The notes under the pieces: generated by a model
Databases searched by the model: none
The model's input: the letters and a program-made list of their open reading frames with translations, nothing else
Told to the model about the DNA's origin: nothing
Source of the DNA: Lachnospiraceae bacterium MD308
GTDB taxonomy: Bacteria; Bacillota; Clostridia; Lachnospirales; Lachnospiraceae
Direction: 5' to 3'
DNA: 51,883 bases
Assembly (NCBI GenBank): GCA_010206225.2
Contig: VIQU02000026.1
Span: forward strand, 6,287-58,169
Translations under genes and position numbers: made by a program
Shown here: one piece after another, positions 47,397 to 51,883 of the stretch
How positions within the stretch are numbered: position 1 is the stretch's first letter
How the letters are laid out: every line of letters starts with the position of its first letter

Positions 47397-47876
47397 ATGA
47401 GAAAAGGATTTTTTAAGCTTACAATGAAAATGTTATTGCTTTGTATCTGTACTGCGTTGCTTTTCTATATACGGGGAGCAGCGGCAGAAGGGGACGGAGA
47501 AGAACAGCAGACAGGTCAGGGGACTGATGCGGACCAGCAGTCCGGCCGGAAAACAGGAGCAGACCGACAGGCAGCGCAGCAGGCAGAATTAAGACAGCGC
47601 GAGGCTTTAGAGCACGAAAGAGCAGCGCGTCTTGGCGAAGAACAACGTGAAAGAGGGAGAAGAATTACCGAAGAGAAGGAAGCAGCAGCAAGGCAGATAG
47701 CAAAAGAGGAGGAGGAAAGAATAAGGCCGGTTGAGACAACAGAGCAAAAGAGGACAGCGCAGCTCGGCGATGAACAGAGGAAAAGAGGAAGGCAGATTAC
47801 CGAGGATCAGGAAAGAACGGCAAGACAGATAGAGCAGAGAGCTCAGGCATGGATACAGAAAAGACAGACACAATAG
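47397..47876 (+). CDS. Secreted Glu/Gln/Arg-rich repeat protein, unknown function
   Basis: 159 residues. An N-terminal signal peptide (basic MRKGFFKLTMK, core MLLLCICTALLFYI, cleavage near GAAAEG) is followed by a highly charged helical region. Two copies of an approximately 40-residue repeat are visible: ARLGEEQRERGRRITEE and AQLGDEQRKRGRQITED, each followed by ARQI. It is likely a secreted or wall-located coiled coil. No catalytic motif or cysteine is seen in the mature part, and no family is recognised. It sits between the ABC operon and the structured RNA gap. Confidence 0.65.
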   Translation: MRKGFFKLTMKMLLLCICTALLFYIRGAAAEGDGEEQQTGQGTDADQQSGRKTGADRQAAQQAELRQREALEHERAARLGEEQRERGRRITEEKEAAARQIAKEEEERIRPVETTEQKRTAQLGDEQRKRGRQITEDQERTARQIEQRAQAWIQKRQTQ

Positions 47877-47940
47877 TAGACTGAATATTTTGCTCAAATA
47901 AGACAATTAAAAGTAATTAACAAAAAAATTAAATAATATA

Positions 47941-47967
47941 TTGACAAAACTGGAGCTATGTGATAAT
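47941..47967 (+). promoter_or_regulatory. Promoter of the intergenic RNA
   Basis: Perfect TTGACA (47941-47946), 15-bp spacer and GATAAT (47962-47967) with an extended TG-T in front. Transcription should start near 47974. Confidence 0.6.
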
Positions 47968-47973
47968 CTATAT

Positions 47974-48267
47974 TTAACAAATAACAAGAGCGACTTACAA
48001 GACAGACGCGAGCTGTAAGTAAGAAGATGTTATTTCAGTCGGCACAGGTGTTGAGAAGGGATTCCTGAAAAAGCGCGCAAAGTATCAGGAATCAGAAAAA
48101 TTTATGAAAGGCAGGTACAGACCACCAAAAGTTTGAATTTATTAAAAAATCGGGTAAGTGCTTGAAGTGACTTAAGAGGACTTGCACCAGAGCGAAAGAG
48201 GTAAAATGAATGATTGAAAGTTCTGTGTAAAGGCGGGTATTGATGAGAAATTAATACCCGTCTTTAC
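47974..48267 (+). ncRNA. Candidate structured non-coding RNA (unidentified)
   Basis: About 290 bases in a 613-base gap (47877-48489) with no plausible protein gene. The 5' end folds into a nested hairpin: an 8-bp outer stem (47979-47986 with 48028-48035), a purine-rich internal loop, and a 7-bp inner stem (47993-47999 with 48014-48020) with a 14-base loop containing CGCG. A second perfect 9-bp stem (48060-48068 with 48085-48093) has a loop with GCGCGC that could kiss the first loop. A 15-bp hairpin (48227-48241 with 48253-48267, one G-T) closes the unit. It matches none of the RNA classes I could recall, including tmRNA, RNase P, SRP, and c-di-GMP or cobalamin riboswitches. Confidence 0.5.
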
Positions 48268-48282
48268 TGGTGTTTATATTTT
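48227..48282 (+). terminator. Terminator of the intergenic RNA
   Basis: 15-pair stem 48227-48241/48253-48267, loop of 11, followed by TGGTGTTTATATTTT. The T tract is interrupted. Confidence 0.6.
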
Positions 48283-48300
48283 GAAACTGATAAATTATAA

Positions 48301-48330
48301 TTGACGTTCTATGTTCCTGTATTATATAAT
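48301..48330 (+). promoter_or_regulatory. Promoter of the FIST-chemoreceptor operon
   Basis: TTGACG (48301-48306), 18-bp spacer, TATAAT (48325-48330). The 160-base leader that follows contains a CGGAC...GTCCG hairpin (48416-48446). Confidence 0.65.
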
Positions 48331-48489
48331 AAATTAGATTTGTGGCTTTCCATTATATGACAGTGGAATTTTTATATTTTTACATCTTAAGGCGGCGAAA
48401 GAGTCTATCTATATTCGGACCTGATGCTTTGCCACAGGCATGTCCGTTTGGTTTGCTGTTTGTGGAAATAATAAAGAAAGAGAGGTCTC

Positions 48490-49548
48490 ATGATGAAACA
48501 ATTTTTTGGAATGAGTCTGTGCGGGGAATTGCAGGAGGCGGTCCGCGGGTTGGACAGACCGCAATTTATTATGCTGCTTTCTAATAAAGATCAGTTTGAA
48601 GCGCATGTGAAGGAATTGGAGAGGATTTTCCCGGGAGTGCCGAGTATTGGCTGCATCGGTATGAGCTATGACACGAAGATAGTGGAACATGGAGTTGGTG
48701 TAATTGCTTTTCTGAATGGTGTTCAGGCCGCGGCGAACGTACTGGAGCAGGTATCTGTTATGCCGGTTAAGTATATTGAGAGACTTAAGCGGGATGTACA
48801 GTCGGTCGGCGCTTCACAGAACGATACGGTGTGCATTGATTTTTGCACCGGGAATGATGCGTGTGTGCTGACTACTATCAATACAGTATTGAAGCACAAG
48901 AAAATTTCGCTGGTAGGCGGAACAGGAGATGCAGGGAAAGTATCGGCCAATGGCAAAGTGTATGAGGATGCGGTAGTATACGGGCTGGTGAAGAATCTGA
49001 GCGGTAAAGTGAAGGCATATAAAGAGAACATTTATCATCGGCTGGAGAATTATCAGTTTATTGCTTCACGGACAGAAAAGGCCAATTACGTCATCGGCGC
49101 GCTCAATGACCGTCCGGCGAAACAGGTATATCAGGATATCCTGAAGGTGTCAGAACAGGATATTACAACTCAGACCTTTAAGAATCCATTTGGGAAGATT
49201 AATGGGGATGATATTTGTATCATATCAATCAAAGAAGTGAAAGGCGATGCACTGACTTGTTTCAGGCAGGTGAATGATTCGGATGTTCTTGTGATGCTCG
49301 AGCTTGGAGATTACAAGGCAGTGGTAAGACAGACGATTCAGCAGATACAGAATGATTTCCAAAGGATTTCGGCAGTGTTTTCCGTAAATTGCCTATTCCG
49401 GTATCTTTTATTTACTCAGAATAATTATATGCAGGAATATCTGGACGATATGAGTGCGCTGGGGAACCATGCGGGATTTGTGGGATATGGAGAGCATTAC
49501 AATAATCGATTTGTGAATCAGTCTATGACTTGCGTAGTATTTGAGTAA
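48490..49548 (+). CDS. FIST-domain sensory protein
   Basis: 352 residues (or 351 from the adjacent ATG 48493, which is better spaced from AGAGG at 48481). The N-terminal FIST_N half ([22 protein letters not shown], then a VGGTGDAG patch) and the C-terminal FIST_C half (ending [17 protein letters not shown]) are both present. FIST domains are predicted cytoplasmic ligand sensors, possibly for amino acids or similar small molecules. The soluble chemoreceptor gene follows 13 bases later, so the two proteins probably form a split receptor. Confidence 0.88.
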
Positions 49549-50615: not shown

Positions 50616-50688
50616 GCGACAGTGGCTCAGTTGGTAGAGTACGACCTTGCCAAGGTCGGGGTCGCGGGTTCGAACCCCGTCTGTCGCT
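50616..50688 (+). tRNA. tRNA-Gly (GCC)
   Basis: 73 bases. The acceptor stem GCGACAG (50616-50622) pairs with CTGTCGC (50681-50687), discriminator T. The anticodon stem CGACC/GGTCG holds anticodon GCC at 50649-50651, reading GGC and GGU. The T arm is GCGGG-TTCGAAC-CCCGT with one mismatch or wobble. CCA is not encoded and must be added. Confidence 0.96.
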
Positions 50689-51021: not shown

Positions 51022-51883
51022 TTAAGCGGTTTGCTCAAAGAGATCTTTTAGCAGGGATGACTTTGGCAACGCCCACGCATCAAGATGTTGACACATCATG
51101 ATGGCAAACAGGCGGCAGTACCACATCATGGATGAACGGTATCTGCCGTCTTCTAATTTATAGTCCATTTTTTCCCGTTTGTTACAGCGCTCAGCAGATG
51201 TTCTTGCATTATATTCCAGCTTCCATTCAGCACTATCACGAGGCGGATTGTTAAACAGCCTTGGATTGTCTTTTAAAACAAGATGAACATTCCTGCCATA
51301 CTTAGCATCGGAACAAGGGTCTTCGCAGGTGCATTGCACAGTACCGCCTTTGCAGGTGATTTTGGGGCAGCGATATTTGATTCGTCCCTTTTTCGGCTCA
51401 ACAGCAGCCTGCTTCATAGGGAACCCTTTAGGGCATAATGGAATCCCATCTTTGTTTATGGTGATGTCATCCTTATAAACAGGAGGGCGTCCGCATTTCC
51501 GGTTCAGGTCTATAAAAGGAGTTATGCCATTGGCTTTACAGTAATCGTAATAAGGCATAGCATCGTGGGCTGAGTCGAGAAGGAGTTTTTTAACGGCAGC
51601 ATCCGTTTCATGGAAAACCAGTTATATAGGAATCCGTGGGAGTCATGCCGGGAGGCAGGACTTAAAAAAGGGAAAACCGGGAGATCATTTTCAGAGTCAG
51701 CTGCGGTCAGCATGTATAAGTCATATCCGAAGTAATAACGGTTACGGTGGGAGTCCCATCCGATGTCACAGTCCGGCTGATGATAGATGCGGTTACACTT
51801 GCAATCGCGGATTCCTTTTTCTATACATTTGCAGGTTCGTGTTTTTCGTTCCCGTGCGGCCGTGTAAACAGGCGTACCATCTC
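51022..51883 (-). pseudogene. DDE transposase, C-terminal part, frame-disrupted (runs off right edge)
   Basis: The minus strand encodes most of a DDE transposase in two frames. The upstream half (from the right edge to about 51585) contains GIRDCKCNR..., YYFGYDLYML and PASRHDS. The downstream half (to 51022) contains KLLLDSAHDAMPYYDYC, FIDLNRKCG and the late SAEWKLEYNARTSAER. The join at 51585-51604 needs a -1 shift. A slippery A-AAA-AAC (51585-51591) lies exactly there. Loss of one copy of a 10-base repeat would also explain it. Probably an inactivated insertion element. Confidence 0.8.

Follow-up and report, generated by a model that had tools for sequence, protein, structure and literature searches.

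The 51,883-nucleotide stretch of DNA from Lachnospiraceae bacterium MD308 that was analyzed here (hereafter, the window) contains a gap of 613 bases without a protein gene, and the question raised by this locus is whether the gap harbors a structured RNA gene of its own or a leader of the FIST gene that follows it. The gap itself had been claimed in an initial annotation of this DNA and is confirmed: it occupies positions 47877-48489, between a 159-codon ORF that ends at 47876 and the FIST gene, which starts at 48490. Positions 47976-48267, about 290 bases, have the appearance of a free-standing RNA gene, for which no transcript has been shown, and we consider it close to certain that this is a real RNA gene of a new family. 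We also propose a mechanism, in which ribosome docking is coupled to formation of the 3' end. The whole statement, new-family gene and mechanism together, is somewhat more likely to be wrong in part than to hold in full; that the RNA is transcribed and binds ribosomes is inferred, as are the coupling and the physiological role.

The features of the locus are collected in Table 1. The promoter claimed for the RNA, a TTGACA hexamer with an extended -10 element, is present, and both of its hexamers and their spacing recur in the alignment with two genomes of the same genus, G003 and G001; the contig of a third, G004, begins at the -10 element. From the position of this promoter, transcription is expected to start near 47976. 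The -10 hexamer TAATCT is weak (3/6; the whole promoter scores 9/12), and for this reason a simple promoter scan does not list the RNA promoter. The claimed terminator-like stem is likewise found at 48227-48267, with 18 pairs counted and a U-tract that is poor; the terminator scan found 1 hairpin versus 0.6 expected. Beyond it, the separate TTGACG-TATAAT promoter that had been assigned to the FIST gene is both present and conserved. The 301-base stretch that includes the terminator folds 3.9 standard deviations better than shuffled versions of itself. Directly upstream of the RNA, the 159-codon ORF (47397-47876, plus strand) has a signal-peptide-like start and Glu/Gln/Arg-rich repeats and is kept in G003; the gene found upstream of the RNA in G001 was named by eye as transposase-like. 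Two overlapping ORFs at the end of the window (51022-51881, minus strand) also appear by eye to be transposase pieces.

Table 1. Positions of the RNA gene's features, and of the neighboring FIST promoter, in the window.
Feature	Position	Strand	Basis
RNA promoter: TTGACA 47941-47946, 17-base spacer, extended TG, -10 TAATCT 47964-47969	47941-47969	+	Sequence; same hexamers in G003 and G001
5' domain: stems 47979-47986/48028-48035, 47994-47998/48019-48023, and 48002-48005/48013-48016; loop ACGCGAG 48006-48012	47979-48035	+	Alignment, RNAalifold
Short hairpin UCGGC/GUUGA	48039-48054	+	8-sequence alignment: 95% of cells paired, one-sided variation
9-bp hairpin GAUUCCUGA/UCAGGAAUC, 48060-48068 with 48085-48093	48060-48093	+	8-sequence alignment, all cells paired
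Shine-Dalgarno-like hairpin unit AAAGGCAGGUACAGACCACC, lacking a start codon where one would be expected	48107-48126	+	Family motif; R1 match at E 2.8e-4 in own genome
Would-be micro-ORF of the unit: CCA AAA GTT TGA, stop in register of the would-be start	48125-48136	+	Stop test on 79 units
Ribosome-binding site AAAGAGG of the micro-ORF	48195-48201	+	Sequence; spacing 7-9 in 52/60 relatives
Micro-ORF ATG ATT GAA AGT TCT GTG TAA (MIESSV)	48210-48230	+	Recognized from relatives
Intrinsic terminator hairpin, 18 pairs, overlaps the micro-ORF stop	48227-48267	+	Terminator scan; kept in G001, G003, and G004, remnant in G002
FIST gene promoter TTGACG-18-TATAAT; neighbor, outside the RNA	48301-48330	+	Promoter scan; kept in G001, G002, and G004

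Within the genus, the RNA stretch is kept in three of five genomes, with identities of 98% (G003), 81% (G001), and 79% (G004). Fully identical blocks in the genus alignment include the -10 element of the promoter, most of GGCAGGTACRGACCACC, the part of the 3' end that precedes the terminator, and the loop ACGCGAG. In G002, the RNA body is lost from the FIST site, where the end of an unrelated ORF directly adjoins a terminator remnant and the FIST promoter is intact. By eye, this ORF (in L005 1171-1700) looks like one for an Xre-type regulator, and its position against the terminator remnant, together with the intact FIST promoter, indicates that the RNA has been replaced at that site. G002 carries an RNA of the same family elsewhere, before another gene. 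A covariance model of the RNA's hairpin unit, R1, finds at least one match in all six genomes of the genus at E 0.1, with two matches in G001 and the weakest match, at 0.0086, in G005. A link to flagellin was considered and rejected: the 21 bases at 47972-47992 are similar to the flagellin codons for RNLTNNNS in other members of the genus, with E-values of 0.04-0.18 per genome and many hits that are equally good, which we attribute to chance.

The nested hairpin that had been claimed for the 5' part of the RNA is real. A comparison of 14 sequences shows its pairs, which form an outer stem (AAAUAACA/UGUUAUUU), a middle stem (CUUAC/GUAAG), and an inner stem (ACAG/CUGU) closed by the loop ACGCGAG. 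The 14 sequences were chosen by that loop, which occurs in 16 of 155 loci. In this alignment, 95.8% of 238 cells are paired and 7 of the 17 pairs carry compensatory changes (19 cells), whereas sliding one partner by 1-3 columns leaves 30-54% of the cells paired and 0-1 compensatory pairs. Of five measures of covariation, one (further pair types) is no higher than in the shuffles. RNAalifold recovers the same stems without being given them. A model of the 5' domain, R2, was run on 200 genomes of the family and matches 8 of them, each with an R1 match on the same strand 52-83 bases further downstream. Five of these genomes are in the model, having been picked for that layout; the three that lie outside it (G061, G064, and G183) keep, as judged by eye, the stems of the 5' domain with further compensatory changes, such as AUGG/CCAU for ACAG/CUGU in G061. 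The loop is ACGCGAG in G064 and G183 and ACGCGAU, with a different last base, in G061. Covariation in relatives was the check that the initial annotation had proposed for its RNA, and the 5' domain does covary, both in the 14-sequence alignment and in the three later relatives.

The hairpins that follow the 5' domain were compared in an alignment of eight sequences, in which the short hairpin at 48039-48054 shows no covariation beyond shuffles. The 9-bp hairpin, which had also been claimed, is present and is paired in 8 of 8 relatives; six of its nine pairs vary on one side via G-U and none vary on both sides. Shuffles do as well, and the hairpin is therefore consistent with the comparison and not proven by it. 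The proposed kissing loops are not supported: CGCG occurs in the middle region of 3 of the 14 window-type sequences (the window included). It is found in the first loop of all 14, which reflects the selection of the sequences by that loop. Other subtypes of the RNA have a hairpin with the loop UGACGAGAAAG, known from 20 distinct loci, in which 98 of 100 stem positions are paired, compared with 21-45% when one partner is slid. At three loci (L119, L141, and L175) this loop, which lies elsewhere in the RNA body in other cases, is inside the terminator loop.

The route to a wider family ran through weak matches to the segment GGCAGGTACAGACCACC, which led to non-coding arrays in other Lachnospiraceae. 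The unit of these RNAs is a Shine-Dalgarno-like hairpin with the consensus AAAGG-N(1-2)-GGU-ACRG-ACC-A-CC. Its exact motif occurs in 43 of 200 family genomes, compared with 3 of 200 for the reversed pattern. We ran R1 on 200 Lachnospiraceae genomes and on a sample of 245 genomes from the class. Of the former, 42 are matched at E 0.001 and 68 at E 0.05, a threshold at which about 10 chance matches would be expected in 200 genomes by E-values that are nominal and rough. Among the 245 class genomes, R1 matches 4 at E 0.01, and because all 4 are Lachnospiraceae, chance hits seem to be rarer than nominal. There are few copies of the unit per genome in this search. The match in the window's own genome is not independent, since a close relative of the window locus, L002, is in R1. 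The collection of the units by exact motif also accounts for part of their invariance. A scan of named genomes returned at least 120 loci; among the 80 listed, 79 bear Bacillota-type names and 1 is assigned to Arenibacter, and the genera among the matches listed include Blautia, Roseburia, Butyrivibrio, Dorea, Mediterraneibacter, and Enterocloster. The Arenibacter locus (L112), L170, L046 (by eye without the architecture), and L187 were left out of the unit counts, and the sets of loci overlap, L002/L115 and L003/L133, for example, being the same loci.

In G031 (L059), four strict hairpin units stand in tandem with a spacing of exactly 58 bases, and since 58 is not a multiple of three, these units do not share one reading frame. 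G026 (L006 1450-1680) has a tandem array of diverged units of the GGTACGGTCCAATC type, without an R1 match at E 0.05; because R1 misses diverged arrays of this kind, the family is wider than counted. Spread by phages was considered and set aside, the one viral contig that matched being, by eye, a chance match in GC-rich DNA. As far as sequence comparison can tell, then, the RNA family is spread over the Lachnospiraceae and carries Shine-Dalgarno-like units, in tandem in some genomes; both points had been missed in the initial annotation.

Given that the initial annotation could place the RNA in no known class, the window was searched against Rfam 15. At the gathering score, this search returned only a tRNA elsewhere in the window, where an ordinary tRNA gene lies downstream of a chemotaxis-like gene (50616-50688, plus strand). 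At a relaxed E-value, the RNA region gave five matches, all to unrelated families and far below the cut-offs, and 6S RNA is not among the matches up to E 10 for positions 47870-48500. The 16 relative loci that were searched (15 distinct, L011 being the same as L041) gave no match at the gathering score; part of them were searched only at a relaxed E-value, at which the best match (0.018) is far below the cut-off. No fitting family was thus found in Rfam for the window or its relatives, in agreement with the original claim. Among the literature matches listed, there is no description of the RNA, and the letters of the motif used as a query matched only work on a human protein. The family is apparently undescribed, and the supplements of PMC8040213 could still hold a matching motif. 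That paper predicts thousands of structured RNA motifs from human microbiomes, some of which could overlap the new RNA; its main text contains none of the words Lachnospiraceae, Blautia, Roseburia, Shine-Dalgarno, and tandem. Another paper (PMC5171806) describes an unidentified non-coding transcript in Clostridium phytofermentans that is very strongly initiated and for which no peptides were detected. It resembles the new RNA as a strong non-coding transcript in a related bacterium, with no sequence comparison behind the likeness.

The relatives also draw attention to the 3' end of the RNA. The terminator finder reports a hairpin in 89 of the 120 loci listed, some of the loci ending too early. 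Among the loci listed, 75 have a strong terminator stem, 67 of these have a tiny ORF, and 60 remain when the set is made non-redundant. In the 60, the ORF has 5-6 codons in 51 cases and ranges to 18 codons; its starts interchange (36 ATG, 23 TTG, and 1 GTG), as do its stops (33 TAA, 14 TGA, and 13 TAG). Measured from the terminator stem, the stops fall between -4 and +6 bases; the search window (-14 to +9) had itself been set near the stem. In a more permissive test, true starts are in frame in 69 of 75 loci, compared with 20-54 of 75 for shifted frames or other triplets. Among pairwise single changes, synonymous ones exceed the others in 5-codon ORFs (274 to 130) and do not in 6-codon ORFs (96 to 149). 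The encoded peptides are acidic (104 acidic and 17 basic of 324 residues), and their sequence drifts widely. Judged from the DNA alone, a tiny ORF with its stop against the terminator is an architecture that the family shares and that had likewise gone unnoticed in the initial annotation.

The hairpin units have no start codon of this kind, and a stop follows them in the register in which the start would be expected. Of 79 non-redundant start-less units, 68 have such an in-frame stop within 13 bases, a number that none of 2000 column shuffles reached (49.2 ± 2.8). The two other frames, which served as the control, gave 24 versus 18.5 and 16 versus 17.3 expected; frame 0 is also slightly raised (92 of 2000 shuffles as high). 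The test was devised after the pattern had been seen, and relatedness was not removed. We also considered the unit as part of a longer peptide (MKGRYRPPKV in the window) and rejected this idea, since reading upstream from the unit for 60 bases reaches an in-frame ATG, GTG, or TTG ahead of any stop in only 22 of the 79 cases, and no longer ORF can therefore run through the unit in general.

Given the Shine-Dalgarno-like unit, the tiny ORF at the terminator, and the in-frame stops after the start-less units, an involvement of the ribosome suggests itself. In the mechanism that we propose, the RNA would be driven by its own vegetative-type promoter and would fold into the conserved 5' domain; one or more AAAGG(N)GGU hairpins without a start codon would serve as docking sites for 30S subunits or as competitors for the anti-Shine-Dalgarno sequence; a ribosome on the tiny ORF would shape termination or 3'-end formation at the adjoining terminator; and the RNA would report on, or titrate, free initiation capacity in trans. 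The RNA would then represent a new class in which decoy ribosome-binding sites without starts, most of them closed by a fail-safe in-frame stop, precede a switch made of tiny ORF and terminator, and which measures or buffers free 30S subunits. We offer this reading as a tentative one that is appreciably more likely to fail than to hold. The duplex of the unit with the anti-Shine-Dalgarno sequence has a median energy of -13.6 kcal/mol, versus -3.0 kcal/mol for the unit's own hairpin, a calculation made with an assumed 16S 3' end and without a control. The unit in the window, which reads AAAGGCAGG, is a poorer Shine-Dalgarno sequence than most, and its hairpin is weak when taken alone (-1.9 kcal/mol). 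PMC4824070 reports almost complete repression of a terminator located several base pairs beyond a gene.

If a conserved RNA-binding protein recognized the hairpins, they would be explained equally well. The RNA could act as a sponge in trans, with its GGU-ACRG-ACC hairpins as protein sites, so that it titrates a protein as CsrB/RsmZ do with CsrA, and with the tiny ORF aiding stability or turnover. The near-invariant hairpin, its conserved flanks, its tandem repeats (four strict copies in G031), the low number of copies per genome, and the varied neighbors of the RNA would all fit such a role. We nevertheless regard it as unlikely, since the window unit has no GGA, since the reading-frame signal after the units and the tiny ORF would be left unexplained, and since CsrA is found over the cut-off in only 32 of 68 R1-positive genomes (21 of 42 at E 0.001), compared with 76 of 132 others. 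A CsrA-titrating RNA in particular was rejected, with CsrA absent over the cut-off in 36 of the 68 R1-positive genomes and GGA not in every unit: it is missing from the window-type unit (L002) and from L040, and in G004 it is in the loop only.

Alternatively, the loops ACGCGAG or UGACGAGAAAG, or the G-rich units when single-stranded, could anneal to mRNAs or to C-rich small RNAs, as would be expected of a base-pairing small RNA with a free-standing gene. Conserved loops on covarying stems speak for this possibility, ACGCGAG being shared by the 14 relatives that were selected for it and by 2 of the 3 that the model added later, and UGACGAGAAAG by 20 distinct loci. There are no target data, however, and the tiny ORF and its position would have no explanation, which makes base pairing as the function distinctly improbable in our judgment.

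It remains to ask whether the RNA acts in cis, with the tiny ORF as a leader peptide and the hairpin as an attenuator of the next gene, which in the window is FIST. A stop flush with the terminator, seen in 67 of 75 loci, is the geometry of ribosome-controlled terminators, and 40 of the 54 loci listed have their nearest downstream ORF on the RNA's own strand (74 of 105 in a wider count, also among the loci listed), at a median distance of 89 bases. The other 14 of the 54 are on the opposite strand, however, and the 54 nearest downstream genes fall into 32 families, which together make a leader unlikely. The commonest neighbor is a downstream gene family at 25 of the 120 loci listed. Two neighbor families, which we take from inspection by eye and without a profile search to be a family 3 glycoside hydrolase and glyA, were considered as partners and rejected; because they are near only 25 and 16 of the 120 loci listed, they reflect synteny in some clades at most. 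The FIST gene has its conserved promoter beyond the terminator, and in G002 only the terminator remnant precedes FIST while the RNA precedes another gene. We therefore consider a cis-acting leader very unlikely. Attenuation of FIST-MCP expression, which had been left open as a possibility, is unlikely as a general function given the FIST promoter past the terminator and the unrelated downstream genes of the relatives. A promoter scoring at least 10/12 is found within 330 bases upstream of the unit in 104 of the 113 relatives among the loci listed that have enough upstream sequence, versus 9.4 expected from shuffles; neither these 113 loci nor the 54 above were made non-redundant. The original preference for a free-standing RNA over a leader is thus borne out by the conserved structure, the covariation, the promoters, and the changing neighbors, with the reservation that no transcript has been shown. 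Least credible, and to our minds barely tenable, is an mRNA with a long structured leader for a peptide of five to six residues: start, stop, and spacing are kept and the peptides are acidic, but their sequence drifts widely and reaches up to 18 codons, and the 5' domain and the units are conserved outside any ORF.

In the mammalian gut, Lachnospiraceae rank with the main producers of butyrate and the main converters of bile acids, and to our knowledge little is known of RNA regulation in this family. An RNA with its own promoter that is present in a fifth to a third of the sampled family genomes (42 to 68 of 200) and absent from Rfam amounts to a large annotation gap. If the ribosome-docking mechanism is true, cells would have a novel means of sensing or holding initiation capacity; it can be tested directly, thanks to ribosome-binding sites that lack a start and show enriched stops.

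Several known systems share single traits with the new RNA. CsrB/RsmZ-type RNAs are free-standing and titrate CsrA through repeated hairpins that hold a Shine-Dalgarno-like sequence; the new RNA is likewise free-standing with repeated Shine-Dalgarno-like hairpins, but it occurs without a consistent CsrA, has no obligatory GGA, and ends in a tiny ORF. In leader-peptide attenuators and ribosome-controlled terminators such as pyrBI, the stop of a short ORF lies at an intrinsic terminator, as it does here, whereas the new RNA has no consistent downstream gene and in the window is followed by an independent promoter after the terminator. Type III toxin-antitoxin RNAs also place tandem structured units before a terminator; the new RNA differs in the lack of a consistent downstream gene (32 families) and in its small, Shine-Dalgarno-like hairpin unit. 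Finally, the bar minigenes of bacteriophage lambda are extremely short ORFs carried on an RNA, and while the new RNA has such an ORF as well, it is chromosomal, is found in many genera, and combines the ORF with a structured 5' domain and start-less units.
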